From positions 28,369,429-28,433,428 of the forward strand of contig OV121097.1 of assembly GCA_921293015.1 (NCBI GenBank): a DNA stretch of 64,000 nt, written 5' to 3'. Positions 1,214 through 28,025 of this stretch are shown piece after piece. The first letter of the stretch is position 1. Every line of letters starts with the position of its first letter. Source of the stretch: Phorcus lineatus (lineage: Eukaryota; Mollusca; Gastropoda; Trochida; Trochidae). Made by a program: the position numbers and the translations under genes. The notes under the pieces were generated by a model that had not been told where the DNA came from, did not search any database, and was given only the letters and a program-made list of their open reading frames with translations.

Positions 1214-1899
1214 GTTTCAGAAGTCAATTAGATTTGGTTGCCAAAGGTAACAGGGTACCTTTAACACCAATATTGAGATTTTCTTATAAGGAAGCTCTCC
1301 AATGCCTAGGCTAAAATTTAGTCTATGGAAATTTTTGATAGTTTACTGTTCCTTCATCCATAATATTTTTTCTTTGGGCTCAGAATTTCATAGACTTGCT
1401 GAATGTGGACCTAGACTGTATTGAAGGCTCCTTTATATTCACAGTCATGAAGCAGGACTATCAAATGCCATGTTAATGACCATGATATGTTAGAGACTCT
1501 GAGACTCTTATCAAACCAATATTCTAACACATTGTGCCTTGGTTTATGACATGGTAACCCTTACTGTATGACACAATGTATGTTAACTTATGAAATGAAC
1601 TCATGAAAACAAGGTTTTTTGGATAATGCCTTCTTTGTTTTGAAATTCAAGATGTTTCGGAGTATATGCTAACTCCTTCATCAGGAGGAATATAAATTGG
1701 GGTACCTATCGTAACAAGTAAACATTAATCAATAATGAGGAAACTAATTAGAGAAATTAATTTAAAGAGAATGTTATACAATATGGATTTGCAGTAAAGG
1801 CATGTGGTGAGTACACACTTAAGTGCCAAAGTAAACAAAGGCCTGTAGGCTTTATTGAAGTAGAGAGTACATTGTGATTGCAAATACACTGAAGTTTGG
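1214..1899. other. Non-coding stretch with one TTTCGG/CTTCATCAG hairpin module
   Basis: No gene is visible. At 1646-1686 the + strand has TGTTTCGG, then AGT, a 9-nt loop and ACT, then CCTTCATCAG. On the minus strand this reads CTGATGAAGGAGT, loop, ACTCCGAAACA, a 5-bp GC-rich hairpin between two fixed words. The same architecture recurs at 8150-8182 and 8443-8475. Confidence 0.5.
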
Positions 1900-4230
1900 A
1901 GGTACAATTAATTGTGCATTGCAATTAGTAGAATATGAGGGTGGGCCAATAGTCTTTATTGAGGGTCACGTTGACACCAATACAGATGATACATGCTGTG
2001 TTTCTGATAAGGATACACTCCAATGCCAATGTCAACTAAGTGAAGAGGTCTTTGAGGTGGGGGTCTATTGAACCAATGTTAACATTCCCTTGAAACCGAT
2101 ATTGGTGTAAGCAGTATTATTAAAGACATAGGGCTCCTTCAAAACCAATACAGATGATAATGGTCATTTTCTAATAAGTACACTGTCTTATAGCATTTTG
2201 ATGGGAACCAAGTCTTGAGTCTTTGAGATGGTGACTCCATGACCAAATTTAGCATTCTGTTAATTCTGTTGGTGATATCAATTTGATTTAAGACCCTTTG
2301 ACAACAATACTGATGATGCATGGGGAAGATCAGATTAGGACACTGTATATGCCATGTTAAGAAAATCTTGAGTGTGTTGAGATCTTTGAACACCAAAGGA
2401 TTTATGACTTGGCATTTCTCCAATATTGTGGTATGTATCTGAAAGACAAAATGACATGATGTCTCTGCAACACCATCATAGATTATACCAAAACATTTTA
2501 AAGCTGAGTAACTCTACAATGCTGTGATTCTGTGTTGAAATGTCTATGACAGGGTGACCCTATCAGACCAGTGTTGGTTCAGGTGGTGGCGTGATTATCG
2601 TGTATGACAAAATATTATGATCAGACCAGTTATAATGTTATAATGTCAGCTTTTGACAGGGCAATTGATCATGAAAACAATATTGCAATGTTGATGTGGT
2701 GAGGTGAGGTGATTTGGTGTTTAACGCCAATTTCAAGAGGAAATATTTTACTTATATCCCTGGTTGCTAGTTTAACTGCAGGGTGAAAGTCCGCAACACC
2801 ATTGTGGCTATGCATTTTGGTGAAGCCTGCATGCATCGGCTGGAACTAGCAAACCATGGGTAGTAATGTGTTGAAATTAAGTGTAGCATTGCACCAAACC
2901 TTATACAGCATGTAGAACAATTCTCTTCTACAGACATTCTAGTACTCAGTTGACAGATGGGATCCTCCTAGGCATTTATAAGAATTATGATGTTGTGGCA
3001 TTGTGAACCTACAGCATCTATTAGATCTGTCCATTATGATGAGCCACATTATCAACAATTTTGACTGAGTATTTGAATTCAAAACAATGTTGATTATTTG
3101 TTTATGAAGTCTCTGAAGCAACAAGAAACTGACGATTTTATTCTTATTTCAAGGTTTTTAGCGTTGAGAATACATAAGAGATATCAATAACGCTCTGGAT
3201 GGTATTTCTAAGCAACACCAAAAAATTATGAAATTTTCAACAAAGACTTGAAGTCTTGGAGATGATACTCCTAGCCTAAGCAATATTGATATAGTTGACA
3301 ATATAGTTGATAATATTAACTGTTCATTGAAATGGTCTCTTACATGGTGATGCAAAAATACCAGTGTTAATGAATAATATTGAGACAATATATGACTAAT
3401 GTATTGGCTGAAGTGCCAGTTGGAGTTTGTTACCAGTCTTATAAGTATCTTGATGGATTTTTGGAGAAATCATAATCGGTAAATGTCTCATGAAGGTAAC
3501 AAATGCTGAATAAAGCAACCGCTGTTGAGGCTTTCAGTGTATTTTGAGACAGTAAATGACTTATGGTATGTGTCAGTAGGAATTATTATTTTTCTGAAGT
3601 TGTCATATTTCAATTTGAGATGAGACCAAAGGGATGAGCACCAAGGAACTAGTATTGATGAAGGTATGGCTAATGACAAGACTATGTTGAGAAATGATGG
3701 TGAAGTTGTTGAAAAGATGACCACTGGAGACTGATGTTGTTGACAATGTGAGAAATGATTTATGTCACAATGCACCTTCAACCCCCTTATTGATGAAACT
3801 GAGACAGTTTATGACAAAGCTATGCTGATAAGTGTTGATTTGACAGGATGACCGTAATGATTCAGGGAAGTAACTATTATTAATGAGGATTGTGGTATGG
3901 TTTATGAGTGGGCAGCATCTCAACACAAACATGAATGTTATAGAAACATTTTATGACTTCAATAACTCTCCAATCCTGAAACTTGTAACTAGAGTTCTGG
4001 AGGTCTAGAGCCAGATGACCCTACAAGACCATGTTTATATGATTTATAACACAAAGCACCTTCAACACCCATACAGATGAGTTTGAGACAGTTTATGAGA
4101 GAGCTATGTTGATGGTGTACGACAAGGTGACCCTTCTTGCCCAGTCTAATTGCTGGTTTAAGCTGAAGTGTGCTTGGTGTTGCTGCCTGCTGAATTATGG
4201 AACAGGGGAATCCTAGTATCAACACTTGCA
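1900..4230. repeat. Decayed long-period tandem repeat region
   Basis: Related phrases recur in the same order. CCAATACAGATGATA-type words occur at about 1978, 2148 and 2304. GAGACAGTTTATGAC-type words occur at about 3383, 3544, 3797 and 4082. A block beginning CACAA-GCACCTTCAAC and running into GAGACAGTTTATGA occurs at 3763 and 4046, a period of about 283 bp. TGACCCTACAAGACCA-type words occur at about 2548, 3716 and 4013. The copies are much diverged, so this is best read as an old satellite or tandem expansion that is mutating away. A SINE fragment is inserted within it (about 2757-2945). The short reading frames here are not gene-like. Confidence 0.6.
2757..2945 (-). mobile_element. SINE copy A, body only (family 1)
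   Basis: The minus strand matches the body of the SINE copies at 22638-22887 and 31901-32150. Shared words in order are GGT-CAATGCTACACT-AATTTCA, then CCCATGGTTTG-TAGTTCCAGC, then GATGC-TGCAGG-TTCACC-AAATGCATA, ending in a CCACAATGGTGTTGC-type tail. The tRNA-like head seen in the other two copies is not recognisable here, so the copy looks 5'-decayed or 5'-truncated. It interrupts the decayed tandem region. Confidence 0.7.
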
Positions 4231-5110
4231 TTCCTACACCTCATAAATCTCCAAACCTTGGTCCTAGAGGAGCAGAGATAGCTGGGCAATAGAAGAAACT
4301 ATTAAAGAAATAGTATTTAAAAGGAGAAGGCTTATAGAACAGTTATGCTATTAACACTCGATCAAGTATTTACCACACAAATCAGAATATCAGAAATGAC
4401 ACTGTTTCATTTATCAGCTTAACCAGAATTAATTTCAAATATTTTGGTTTGGATGTTATGATTATGAGCATTGATAGTGGTTCTCATTTTATTCACACAA
4501 AAAAGTGTTTTTGAGGAAAAGAATCTTCTGTGTTAATAATCGATTTTGAATATGTAATCATATAAATTATCAATTCCCATTTGTTTAGGCAATTGCCATA
4601 CCAATAATGAAATAGATATTGCTCAAATATGCAAGAAGTTTTATGAAATTGATCAGAAATTCTGTATGATATCAATATTCCTTAAAAATCAAGAATATTG
4701 ATAAAGTATACCTATGTGTCTTCCAAATATTATAGATTTAGAAAATCTTGAATCATAAGAAGAATGTTTTAGACAGGGTCCTAACATTTATTTTAAAAGA
4801 ATTTATTTATCAGTAAGAACAGCAATGATATTAATACTTCTCGCATTCTATCCGTCCTCAATCTCTCAAATGAAAAATTTAAAACAAGAGAATTCAAACT
4901 TTAATGTCTTTATTTACGTAGAACATAAAGAAAACCGCAATCTTAAAGGAATTACCCGTCAGGTTTGTAAAAGGCTCAGTTCTGTCATACGATATGGAAA
5001 CAAAAAATCAATCAGTACGTTGTGGTCATTTTTTGCCCACCATTTTCTGATTAGTGTCACGGGCTCATTCACTTTGTAATTACAAACTCTTAATTGGATT
5101 TTTTTTTCAG
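4231..5110. other. AT-rich non-coding stretch, nothing recognised
   Basis: No repeat, RNA gene or coding exon is recognised. Frames are short and unsupported. The stretch ends in a strong polypyrimidine-AG (5101-5110), discussed under findings as a possible acceptor. Confidence 0.5.
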
Positions 5111-5404
5111 TACGTATATCACCAATGTGGTATTGTTGAAGTTGGATCGATTGTCCCGACTTGCTTCTTATTGAAGCACAGATTGCCGAGGGGCTTCTCA
5201 ACCACCACAGAATACAATCATGGGAGACCTATCAATAATTCAAGAACCTTGGGTCTTCACTGCCGGGTTCTTCTTAGGTTGCAAATTAAAATGCCACTAG
5301 AAGTTTGAATCCTCATATGATCATTAGGGTTTATTAGTGAAATAACTGCACACCAACATCCCTGCGTCGAGTAATTAAAAATTAATAAGTAACGTGGTGA
5401 TGGG

Positions 5405-5915
5405 CCTGGAGAGATGTGGAAATGCTTAGTGGGAGATAGACTTGGATCTAGTGTCTAAATCTAGACTTGCTTTTGTCAAAATTGTGATTGGATTGTGTTG
5501 CCCATTTCTTAATACATAGTATATACAAAGTGAAACATTGAGAACAGAAATATATTTCTTTGAGGTTTTCAGTTTTCCCTTCTAGTTCTAGATTGTGTTG
5601 CCCATTTCTATATACTATAGCTGTTCATAGTGAAAAATTGAGAACAGAAATATCTTTCTTAGAGTTATGCAGTTTTCCCCTTCTAGTTACCTGTAACCCT
5701 TATTCAGGTACCTCGATGGATGTGGTAATTCTTAGTGGAACACAGAGTGGAGAGATAAACTTAACTCTTTTTGTCAAATTGTTGTGGAGATATTATCTTT
5801 TGATTGTGATGCCAATTACCTTAACATGAGAAGTGACATAGAAATGCAAATTTAACAAATGTTTTTAGCGATATGCAGTTGTTTCTTCTTAAGATACTTC
5901 TCGAATTGAGTGTTT
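5405..5915. repeat. Compound tandem repeat, ~100-bp and ~303-bp periods
   Basis: GATTGTGTTGCCCATTTCT occurs at 5491 and 5591 (period 100 bp) and in diverged form at 5802. Each copy is followed by a diverging GTGAAA-ATTGAGAACAGAAATAT module and a CAGTTTTCCC-type word. A second module, GATGTGG-AAT-CTTAGTGG through TTTTTGTCAAA-TTG, occurs at about 5414 and 5717 (period about 303 bp). The order is A-B-B'-A'-B'', which suggests two rounds of unequal duplication. No coding function is apparent. Confidence 0.85.
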
Positions 5916-6375
5916 TTAGCAAGACTTTCAAGGAAATTATCTGAGAAAATTCTTATATTTTTTCTGGTTGTTGTGGTGATGGTTATAGTGATAGAGATGG
6001 ACTCAGGCCCTGTTTCTCAGTATAAATTCTATTTTGCAATTTGTTCATAATCGAGACTTGATTTTCTTATTTTGATAAATAGATGAACTAAAAACACATC
6101 ATAAGTGAAGCTGTGTGTTGAATAATATACAAGTTCATGTAGCACAGTGTGTAAAGATGATACACACTTTTGGCGCTGACCATTTTTCGTAACGACTCCT
6201 TGTTTGAGAGCACTGGAAGTTCACACAAAGATCAAAATGACCTATGACCTAAGATTCCTCAGATTTATAAAATTTATCTTCAGATGAATTAACGAAATTG
6301 AATTTTGAGGGGGGTTCTTCTGATGGAACAGCTCAATTTAACATTCAAGTTTATCCTAGCTTGAATAGAGAACAA
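5916..6375. other. Non-coding stretch, nothing recognised
   Basis: Ordinary AT-rich sequence. I see no conserved motif, repeat or exon. Confidence 0.5.
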
Positions 6376-6465
6376 GTTCTATGGATTAACAACTTCTTTA
6401 TCGCAGAATTGCGACATTTCGGCTGTTGATACTAACAATATGTTAACAAGTAAGTAAAGGAGTCT
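6376..6465. mobile_element. Solo half of the CAACTTCTTTAT foldback family
   Basis: The order CTATGGATTAACAACTTCTTTAT, a short spacer, GCGACATTTCGG, then TGTTGATACTAACA and GTTAACAAGTAAG matches the left arm of the foldback element at 14243. That arm runs CAACTTCTTTAT, GTGCCAAGTTC, TGTAGATACTAACA, GTTATCAAGCAA. Only one arm is present here, so it is a solo or decayed copy. Element class is unknown. Confidence 0.6.
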
Positions 6466-8379
6466 TATCCTATAGCTTGTTTTTCAGAGAATAATATTCA
6501 GAAATAAGATGAGAATCATGGTTTCCTTTTCCAAAGACTTAGAGTTGGTCAAAAGATAGCTTTTTTCTCAACCTTGAGATTGCATAGTTTGGGATGTTAA
6601 TTTATTTTGAAATCAAATGAGAGGCATCAAATGTTATGATTTTTTTTATTCAATTTACAAAATTAAATCAACAATATTTTCAAAATGTGAAAATAATATA
6701 ATTTTAATCTAAATTGTTGCTCTAATTCATGTTTTGTGTGAAATGTTATTTTTCAGGTAAAATTTATTGCAGGGAACTAAACGTAAGAACCGATCATTAG
6801 ATAAATGATAAATCTTTGTGTATTGTCAGTTGAGTAAAAAAAATATCAATAGTGAATGAATAAATAACTATTATTGAATAAAAAAATCATCTAATAAATC
6901 ACATCAGAGATTTGAATGTTTGTCAATGAACTGTAAGAAGGTCTTGAAATAAAATAATAAGTATCCAACTGTTGATTGATCCCCTTAATGGTGTAGAAGG
7001 TTTGTATCCTGCGGTTAGTTGATCTGCTCCCAGTGAGAGATAGACCCCGCTCTATAAGAGTATAATTACTAGAAAGAACTAATTTGTTTCACACTGTTAC
7101 ATGGAGAGCCCTCTCTGTTGAGGTTTGCTCTAGTTAATGGGTTTGTGTTCTTGGGGCAATGGTAAATTCATTTAAAGAATTCTTTATATAGAATTTTGGT
7201 ATGATGGTTATTTCTAGAAGATTTTCTGAGTCTATTTAGTTGAATTCTATTATCTTTAAGCTTTAGTTAATTATTTGTTTAATAATTAACAACCTTTTAA
7301 AAAAAATTCAAGATTCTTAGAATCTTTTGAAATGAAAGTAATTGTCCTCTTTCTTTTAATTCTAATTTTTAGTACACTTCAGAAAAAATTATTATATTTT
7401 TATGTATGTTTGGGATTACATGTTGTTATTTTGAATAATTTATCTATTAACCAAAATTTGATGTGAGGTTCAATTTTACTAAATTCCAACCAGACTCGAA
7501 AATATTTTGTATCTTGGAATTAGTTTCAGTGAATTATGGGTGAACCTTACATTGTGGAAATTAACATTTTGATAAAATGTTTTCTAATTTTGCATAGGAT
7601 TTTAACTTCCAAAAGTCAAAACTTTAAATCATTAAACCTTATATTGTATCAATTAAATTAAGATATTTCACCACATTTCAACATTGTACCACTAGTATCA
7701 ACGGGAATATTATAGATACATTCCAAAGAAAAATTTCTTTGCTTCTACTGGGAATTTTAGAATTGCACACTCAGCATTTTCTAACTAGGGATCATCTTTG
7801 CAACGTAAGTCCTTTGTCCTTTATCAATTATTCATGCAAAGATATGTGAAATACCAAAGAGTTAATCCCACACAGTCTGTGAGAGAATTTCAACATGTAG
7901 GAGTTAATAATGTAACGCACAGAGGAGATATCTCATTAATGAAACTAATAATTTGCCGTCAATGTGTTTCTGTAGAAGATGACTTTCTTATAGCAGAGCG
8001 CAATGATATCAAATTTCTCATCAAGTTTGTTATTGTTTGCCTGATAGAATATTGAGTCATTGGATTATACATTTATTTAATCTCAGTCTGGTATTAACCT
8101 TAAAGACCATGATTTTCATAGAAAACGTCTTTGTTATCGTGAAAGTCACAATGTTTCAGAAAATATGTGTACTCCTTCATCAGGTAGGATGTGGGGAAAA
8201 ACAAAATAGGATATTATAATTATCACCCAAATCAAATCTCATTAAATAGTAAGCAAATACTCTGATATGTTGAGAAAAGGGCGGCGCTGACTTACGCTAG
8301 AGAAGAAAGTATTGGTCAGAATGACAAATCCATGGATCAAATAAATGATTCATGACGGTACAGGAAAGTTAAATAAAAT
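6466..8379. other. AT-rich non-coding stretch with one degenerate CTTCATCAG module
   Basis: No gene is recognised. At about 8150-8182 the sequence has ATGTTTCAG, a weak inverted repeat, then ACTCCTTCATCAGG. This is a mutated version of the module at 1646 and 8443. The remainder is homopolymer-rich AT sequence. Confidence 0.5.
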
Positions 8380-8563
8380 AAAGTGGGGAGTACCGTCAAA
8401 ACACAGAGATGAAATTCATTTTGAATACAACATTTAATTGTAACGTTTCGGGGGCCGTTGGACCCCCTTCATCAGACTGGTCCAACGGCCCCCGACACGT
8501 TACAATTAAATGTTGTATTCAAAACGAAGTTCATCTCTGTGTTTTGACAGTACTCCCCCCCTT
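8380..8563. mobile_element. 184-bp foldback element with ~83-bp arms
   Basis: Left arm 8380-8462 and right arm 8481-8563 are near-perfect reverse complements. Words found in both orientations include GTCAAAACACAGAGATGAA, GAATACAACATTTAATTGTAACGT and CGGGGGCCGTTGGA. The 18-nt loop contains CCCCCTTCATCAGACTGG. There are only about half a dozen mismatches and little indel, which implies recent formation or maintenance by conversion. The minus strand contains CTGATGAAGGGGGTC, loop, GGCCCCCGAAACGTT in the centre. No transposase or convincing target-site duplication is visible, so it is a non-autonomous palindromic element. Confidence 0.9.
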
Positions 8564-27100: not shown

Positions 27101-28025
27101 TTCATTTTTAGACAACATGCCAGGAGCAGTGGGAATAGACAATCTACTTATCTCTCTATTATTGTATTTTTCATGGCTACTCTGTTTTTTGTTACAAATT
27201 TCTAAAATGCTAATGGGAAATGATTTATTGGCAATTTATCTTATTTTAAAAAGAAATGCCTGGATATTCTGGGATCGCGATCTTTATGAGTTTAAATGAA
27301 TATGTAATTGATTTAAGAAAGACAAGATTTCTTGGAAAACAACTTCTTTCTTGTGATATTCATTATGTTTCTTAGTATATAAGTTTTCTCCTTTATCAGT
27401 TCATGTACTCATAAACAATGTTGTTATTCAGCAATTCCTGTCTTTCTTATGTACAGCACTTCTAAATGCCCTTCAAAGATATGTATTTGATTTGCTATGA
27501 TTTCTTGATAGTTGTTTTTCTCTGACAGTTTTTAGATTATATGGAACAGTTTATTATATCTACATATTCATATGTAAAGTTTTGATGTATTAAATAAGTA
27601 TCAAAAATAAATCATATAATCATTTCTATTTGAACCTTATTAGGAAAGTCTACGAAAAAGCCTTTTACAAAGTATTACAAGGATTTGTCAATAAAACATA
27701 AACACAAAAATCCTGCTACGACTAAAATGAATAAATGTTTATTTTTGTGTCACACCACAATTCCAAAAGTAAATACATTCTATACAATCAAGTAAAAGGT
27801 CCAAAATTAACATCTACCAGTAGTTATCACTTGTATTATAAACATTTTTGCAACTATGTCATCACACCATTTAAACAATGTATATTTTGTTATCTAATAT
27901 TCCTTTAGATTATCAATGATATCTGTGTCTCATAAGCCTTTAAAAGTTGGATGTTGTTTTTTAAATTGATTTTGTAAAATGTTCCGAATTTTTTATAACA
28001 ACATGTGACACTAAATTAAAATATA
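24106..28025. other. Long AT-rich non-coding stretch
   Basis: No feature can be supported. A 60-codon frame at 27117 follows a pyrimidine-rich TTTTTAG, but has no domain or downstream donor in frame, and I do not call it. Confidence 0.5.

Follow-up and report, generated by a model that had tools for sequence, protein, structure and literature searches.

A hammerhead-like motif with an additional core base in Penelope-like elements of the gastropod Phorcus lineatus

Results

The window analysed here comprises 64,000 nt of the gastropod Phorcus lineatus (assembly GCA_921293015.1, contig OV121097.1, positions 28,369,429 to 28,433,428) and carries three copies of a short motif, which is probably a variant of the hammerhead ribozymes of Penelope-like elements (PLEs). 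In a pattern search CTGATGAAG, a hairpin and CGAAAC were found as exact matches on the minus strand at 1654-1684 and 8445-8475, while no such arrangement was obtained in 100 dinucleotide shuffles of the window. The third site (8150-8182, minus strand) reads CTGATGAAG…TGAAACATT and is decayed, most of the stem being gone. The core is intact in the 8.4-kb copy (8437..8480, minus strand; CTGATGA-A-hairpin-GAAACGUU) and decayed in the 1.6-kb copy (1646..1689, minus strand; CGAAACAUC, with a broken stem I) and the 8.15-kb copy (8145..8188, minus strand; UGAAACAUU). A covariance model built from 69 motif copies gave 61.6 bits (E 7e-17) for the 8.4-kb copy, which was among the training sequences, and 37.6 bits (E 3e-9) and 30.2 bits (E 6e-7) for the 1.6-kb and 8.15-kb copies, both of which lie outside the training set.

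To place these sites, the complete 958-Mb assembly (74 contigs) was searched. The pattern CTGATGAAG-N6..36-CGAAACGT occurs in 270 exact copies compared to 2 for the reversed-pattern control, and CTGATGAAG-N16-CGAAACG with at most one mismatch occurs in 834 copies compared to 10 in the control. The CTGATGAAG–hairpin–CGAAACGT motif is real and recurrent, in agreement with the original prediction, which had described it at the three loci of the window. Flanking sequences were read for 96 of the 100 matches listed (of the 270 exact ones), yielding 94 distinct copies including the 8.4-kb copy. These belong to two families that have the core and an additional A in common. Family A has the hairpin GAGTWAGCATATACTC or relatives of it, and its core is mostly followed by C and GTGAATTTCACAATAAAG. 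The hairpins of family B are GGGGTC…GACCCC, GGAGGC…GCCTCC, GGGAGC…GCTCCC and others, and the core is followed by T, A or C and then ACAATTAAA. The 1.6-kb and 8.15-kb copies are decayed members of family A and the 8.4-kb copy is a short, head-to-head member of family B. Elsewhere in the genome (G000:C41, 12.62-12.66 Mb) four motif copies about 12 kb apart resemble a large repeat array.

The hammerhead core CUGANGA … GAAA is present in all 270 exact copies. Invariance of CTGATGA among them is by design, since the search pattern demanded these letters; locus L134, which was found via its protein, has CTGAGGA, still conforming to CUGANGA. The original prediction had also pointed to a constant extra A ahead of stem II, and this was borne out: with A and G as the bases searched, 270 copies carry A and four carry G at the position that separates A9 from stem II. 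A search with CTGATGAG, which lacks the extra A, and the same 3' core returned 17 copies (control: 4), ten of which are one unrelated classical hammerhead, while in four the extra A is replaced by G. The ten classical copies, found genome-wide, have an identical core (CTGATGAGTCCTGGCGGGACGAAACGT) and possibly represent an animal retrozyme. The cleavage-site base H17, which was left free by the search, is A in 41, C in 31, U in 21 and G in a single one of the 94 copies. For the 8.4-kb copy a G had been predicted at this position; the base that follows GAAACGU is U.

Covariation was analysed in 69 gap-free copies with a 16-nt hairpin, from which duplicates had been removed, using 500 shuffles and slid stem partners as controls. 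In stems I and II combined, 83.6% of the cells were paired compared to 67.7% after shuffling, and 115 double-sided changes were counted compared to 46.5; in both cases 0/500 shuffles reached the observed value. Sliding the stem partners cut pairing to 37.5-58.9%. The bulk of the signal is carried by stem II, in which 89.4% of the cells are paired across six pairs, five of them with double-sided changes. Compensatory change in the hairpin stem, initially noted for two of the window sites, thus extends to strong covariation of stem II across all 69 copies.

Stem I is weakly supported in the same set, with three pairs and 72% of the cells paired. In full-length copies, family B has TTGT/ACAA at this place (TTTGT/ACAAA in L098, and three pairs only in copies like L081), and family A has CAC/GTG. 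The 8.4-kb copy is truncated at its 5' end and retains just GU/AC of stem I. The core continues as GAAA-C-G-U-H, with the pairs A15.1-U16.1 and C-G and without a loop, so that stem III is the palindrome ACGU alone and can therefore form only between two copies. The letters of this palindrome were set by the search pattern, and stem III was therefore unable to covary. Stems I and III, which could not be assembled in the original prediction, can both be assigned in reduced form, stem I with 3-5 bp in full-length copies and a predicted stem III as the palindrome ACGU. The covariation analysis that had been proposed to check the motif is thus positive for stem II, is mainly a single contrast between families A and B for stem I, and was fixed by the search for stem III. 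A stem I formed by the long-range pairing GTACCGT/ACGGTAC was considered and rejected, as these letters are part of a second tail hairpin and would, by eye, place G at the cleavage position. This second hairpin lies between the motif and the presumed start of reverse transcription (reverse complement 6629-6680 of L133; family-B tails), and its stems differ by subfamily (GGATGGC/GCCATCC, ACGGTAC/GTACCGT); it was seen in one fold and in the sequences, with a z-score of only -1.6 for the whole tail.

The same genome contains canonical PLE hammerheads. By pattern search, a hammerhead with palindromic GUAC was detected in 25 of 30 loci encoding a GIY-YIG domain (24 with an identical string and one variant). 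The covariance model of the motif, applied to these 30 loci as a control, gave weak matches on the canonical hammerhead in 24 of them (E 0.98, one 0.047) and one weak match elsewhere (L054). The canonical form (e.g. L039:1949) resembles the motif in the order of its parts and in its place downstream of the GIY-YIG domain, but its stem I is ATTCAC/GTGAAT, its palindrome is GUAC (within GAAA-GUAC-UU), and the extra A is missing. Further hammerhead-like strings with palindromic stem III (GCGC, CATG, CCGG) were seen near PLEs at L057, L062, L065, L068, L046 and L050. This suggests that several dimer-type hammerhead lineages are present within one genome.

The host of family B is a Penelope-like element. 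Its coding capacity is best seen in L133, in which an open reading frame (ORF) of 729 amino acids contains the Pfam domains RVT_1 (5.4e-9) of reverse transcriptase (RT) and GIY-YIG (6.1e-5, 23.7 bits, cut-off 22.6). The protein can also be aligned to further GIY-YIG loci in this assembly, with 7e-58 as the best value. An ORF of 252 amino acids begins 25 nt past the stop of the RT–GIY-YIG ORF and encodes a C2H2 finger above the Pfam cut-off (zf-C2H2_4, 27.7 bits; ORF at reverse complement 5305-6060). It is followed by a 3' untranslated stretch, the motif, 213 nt and then the 3' end common to other copies. L134 is a relative with the motif CTGAGGAAG, in which the RT is spread over two separate frames. 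The C2H2 ORF of L134 (4938-5633) shares 33% identity with that of L133 over the length, has an in-frame stop ahead of the last part and encodes a finger under the cut-off. L134 also has an additional small ORF that runs into the beginning of the RT ORF. Upstream of another family-B motif (L132) a 64-amino-acid N-terminal piece is encoded, which has 68 matches in the genome, several of them beside GIY-YIG matches.

A tandem arrangement was found in L135, an array of internally deleted units of 1,399 bp, in which three motifs are spaced 1,399 bp apart with 100% identity over a 1,749-bp overlap. Each of the three motifs is preceded by AATTTGT and followed by AACAATT. The repeat ends in …CGCCCCACACCT, its 3' end lying in an AC-rich stretch shortly ahead of the first ORF; about 88 nt further on lies a small ORF (MSNPPN…) with one in-frame stop, the motif being about 300 nt upstream of it. 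None of the copies read has all three ORFs (the small one, that of the RT and that of the C2H2 finger) in an intact state. A search of literature titles returned no report of a C2H2 ORF following the RT ORF of a PLE, which is not proof of absence. Until recently PLEs were described as compact, with either a single ORF for RT and endonuclease or two ORFs without endonuclease, the giant Terminons being the exception (PMC6431247).

Head-to-head inverted copies were found at L123, L100, L118 and L081, and several GIY-YIG loci of the genome likewise form close minus-then-plus pairs. In the window, self-comparison revealed a fold-back (8380..8563) with arms at 8380-8464 and 8479-8563 that are 93% complementary and separated by 14 nt, the plus-strand arm starting within stem II. 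The arms arise from two head-to-head copies, whose heads meet at 8477/8479, and are not ribozyme stems. Inverted arms such as these 85-nt arms, or those of 1.5 kb at 98.7% identity in L123, could also be the termini of a DNA transposon or of a miniature inverted-repeat transposable element whose likeness to a hammerhead is fortuitous. We regard this as hardly credible: the copies compared have a fixed 3' end and differing 5' ends, no transposase family was detected among the five proteins scanned, and head-to-head insertion is a known habit of PLEs, described in rotifers with palindromes at the junctions and ascribed to self-priming (PMC3846280). An inverted-terminus DNA transposon was rejected once the RT and GIY-YIG ORF of the coding copy had been found.

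The ends of the insertions were then compared. A script classed 69 of the 94 copies as family B, a few of which (e.g. L105, L111, L112, L116) are probably family A; the other 25 were left out, either because they were assigned to family A or because their flanks were short. Conserved upstream sequence, in all cases ending in TGT, is present in 13 of these 69 copies and missing from 56. In 44 of the 56, GT stands directly ahead of CTGATGA and is preceded by G (18), C (13), A (7) or T (6). A genome search for a base other than T before GT gave 104 copies, and among the 100 matches listed this base was G in 63, C in 25 and A in 12, compared to 26% G expected by composition; this count is taken from the pattern matches and from copies that are not independent. 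Short copies thus mostly start 2 nt upstream of CTGATGA, most often after an unmatched G. They are numerous and about 215 nt long; the minus-strand copy at 8262..8477 of the window, a terminal-repeat piece whose extent is matched by a genomic copy at positions 124-339 of the query, is one of them. Length, number and the hammerhead-like motif are also what would be expected of retrozymes, non-autonomous hammerhead elements that spread via circular RNA and whose animal RNAs measure 170-400 nt (PMC7229834). It is nevertheless improbable that the short copies are retrozymes, as they begin upstream of the cleavage site and are pieces of the coding element (L036 is 99.5% identical to the end of L133); moreover, 21 of the 56 copies without conserved upstream sequence were flagged as fold-backs, and few of the copies read are tandem (L033, L103).

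For family A, the pieces surrounding the window motifs lie on the minus strand at 1609..1938 (75% identity to L131 over 344 aligned nt) and 8108..8198 (78% to L131). An additional family A fragment, which aligns from the motif start, is located at 27312..27399 (minus strand, 76% to L131); the covariance model search reported nothing there at E up to 1. Near L131 an RVT_1 fragment was found, which is read as belonging to a long interspersed nuclear element (LINE); the sequence in common with the window begins only some 340 nt past this ORF on its downstream side. From the common motif, family A may be a PLE as well. Outside of these elements, a tandem array of a 9-bp unit (GTTGAACTG) occupies 1106-1213 of the window.

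Discussion

Here we describe a motif that is likely to be a hammerhead-type RNA of Penelope-like elements and for which catalysis is a prediction. It is a variant in two respects: A9 and stem II are separated by an additional A, and nothing but the palindrome ACGU is left of stem III. What has been observed is that the core is conserved and stem II covaries, together with a weak stem I whose two sides both differ between the families, an H17 that is almost never G, and the location of family B in the 3' region of an RT and GIY-YIG element with tandem and head-to-head architecture. The suggestion of an inactivated or derived ribozyme as in PLEs is partly upheld, a derived PLE hammerhead being in line with the core, stem II, element position and the family-B host; the 1.6-kb and 8.15-kb copies are decayed, and cleavage is predicted.

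The motif resembles the minimal type I and dimeric hammerheads of PLEs (Cervera & De la Pena 2014; Lunse et al. 2017), as these are described in citing papers. Location in terminal repeats, the CUGANGA–stem II–GAAA core, a very short palindromic stem III, the H17 rule and tandem arrangement are common to both (PMC7761336, PMC6155905; double hammerheads in PMC6466107). By these descriptions, the motif differs in its extra A between A9 and stem II, in a stem III of only ACGU and in a stem I of only 3-5 bp. The motif would thus belong to a known hammerhead family of PLEs, from which the extra core letter sets it apart.

An extra A is also found in the plus-strand hammerhead of chrysanthemum chlorotic mottle viroid (CChMVd), in which it lies between A9 and G10.1 and the stems are longer. 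The legend of a figure in PMC3705267 likewise gives the extra A for this hammerhead, which resembles the motif in this respect but belongs to a viroid. Weak activity of a viroid hammerhead has been attributed to an additional nucleotide in its core (PMC11014351).

Several observations speak against a hammerhead-type RNA of PLEs or against parts of this interpretation. In type I hammerheads stem II follows A9 directly, whereas the motif has a base inserted there; because of this extra A it is called a variant and not a plain member. In an earlier study cleavage became weaker when a base was inserted after A6 or close to C3, and an insertion into GAAA was considered tolerable (PMC3088659). In the covariation set, the number of pairs with a double-sided change (8, compared to 7.2 in shuffled data) was reached by 133/500 shuffles, and that of further pair types (24 compared to 21) by 13/500. 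Stem I comprises 3-5 bp in full-length copies, its pairing within families is not in excess over shuffles (e.g. 19 vs 18.7 of 24; 60 vs 59.5 of 70), pairing persists in 73/94 copies in one control with the first pair slid, and its third pair is broken in 41/69 copies, largely those cut at GT. No second motif copy was detected upstream of the RT ORF in L133 and L134. An autonomous PLE host of family A was not found, and in the family A loci that were read there was no match to the PLE protein of L133. The reading of short-copy starts as RNA ends, discussed below, is drawn from DNA ends only, in copies that are not independent. Finally, searches with the Rfam hammerhead models, which had been proposed as a check, gave no match in the window or on L133. 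Formally, this is one of the outcomes named beforehand as refuting the prediction, yet it is uninformative on hammerhead identity, because the positive control, a canonical PLE hammerhead from this assembly (L039), was missed too; RF00163 likewise gave no match in any control genome.

The insertion ends bear on whether cleavage takes place. Of 261 candidates 40 were scored, and among the 25 matches with a query start at 120-330, 12 start at 123-124 (GT) and none at 159-161, the predicted cleavage site, which also counts against the proposal. Cleaved RNA is therefore not seen as a template. It is possible, though not the likelier case, that the motif descended from a PLE hammerhead, has ceased to cleave and persists as a structured signal, placed at the 5' end of the RNA or close to the start of reverse transcription, where it would act in protein binding, in template pairing via ACGU or as part of a promoter. 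The extra A in the core, the tiny stems I and III and the start of short copies at the motif would all be in line with such a role, as would the lizard PLE of PMC11167929, whose insertion in vitro did not depend on cleavage. On the other hand, the catalytic core letters (CUGAUGA, GAAA, A-U) are coupled with many stem II sequences, even if these core letters were fixed by the search, and the freely searched H17 is non-G in 93 of 94 copies. A mere protein-binding hairpin is disfavoured, because it would need neither the catalytic core nor the H17 rule.

The hammerhead-type reading leads to the following proposal. Two motifs in tandem, or in paired RNA, would fold jointly via ACGU and would then be able to cleave after H17. 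LINE-type reverse transcription adds a copied cap G, and the start of the short copies is read as a capped RNA 5' end with such a G. Transcription of the element would start at the G two bases upstream of CTGATGA (capped start GUCUGAUGAAG); the RNA would therefore retain no more of stem I than GU, which would disarm the ribozyme at its 5' end. Motifs further along a tandem or read-through transcript would retain the whole stem I and could be cut. Reverse transcription would begin internally at the AC-rich end of the repeat, and if it proceeded through the initial 215 nt as far as the cap, short copies like the one at 8.4 kb would result. Two short copies from both target strands, or self-priming, would yield the head-to-head fold-backs. 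A literature search found no paper on a cap-derived G, and titles on PLE transcription starts and on the exact motif letters contained nothing on this variant.

The Poseidon PLE of Anolis (PAc, PMC11167929) provides a functional comparison in these respects: it encodes RT and GIY-YIG like the family-B host, has a hammerhead at the junction of pseudo-long terminal repeat and ORF, starts reverse transcription internally at an AC-rich stem-loop, which the AC-rich 3' end of the present repeat resembles, and cleaves and extends both target strands. In contrast to the present element, in which the motif lies well upstream of the small first ORF (L135) and a C2H2 ORF follows the RT ORF (L133), PAc has a single ORF that starts at stem II of the hammerhead. 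For PAc it is also reported that no reads began or ended at the cleavage site and that the ribozyme cleaved only with protein present.

Going further, we tentatively consider that the motif represents a distinct hammerhead subclass, with a fixed extra A and ACGU as stem III, which is built into the transcription start of a PLE with a small first ORF, an RT and GIY-YIG ORF and a C2H2 ORF. The 5' ribozyme would be disarmed and downstream tandem copies would keep stem I, and ACGU might in addition join two template RNAs for two-strand insertion, leaving ribozyme-centred fold-backs; taken as a whole, this scenario is doubtful.

The role of hammerheads in Penelope-like elements has been called unknown (PMC7761336). 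The genome of P. lineatus supplies the variant in hundreds of copies, with stem II covarying naturally among them, with insertions that begin sharply at the motif, and with a tandem array that looks recent (L135). Two questions thereby become testable, namely the effect of an extra core base on cleavage with a near-absent stem III, and a transcription start inside a ribozyme.

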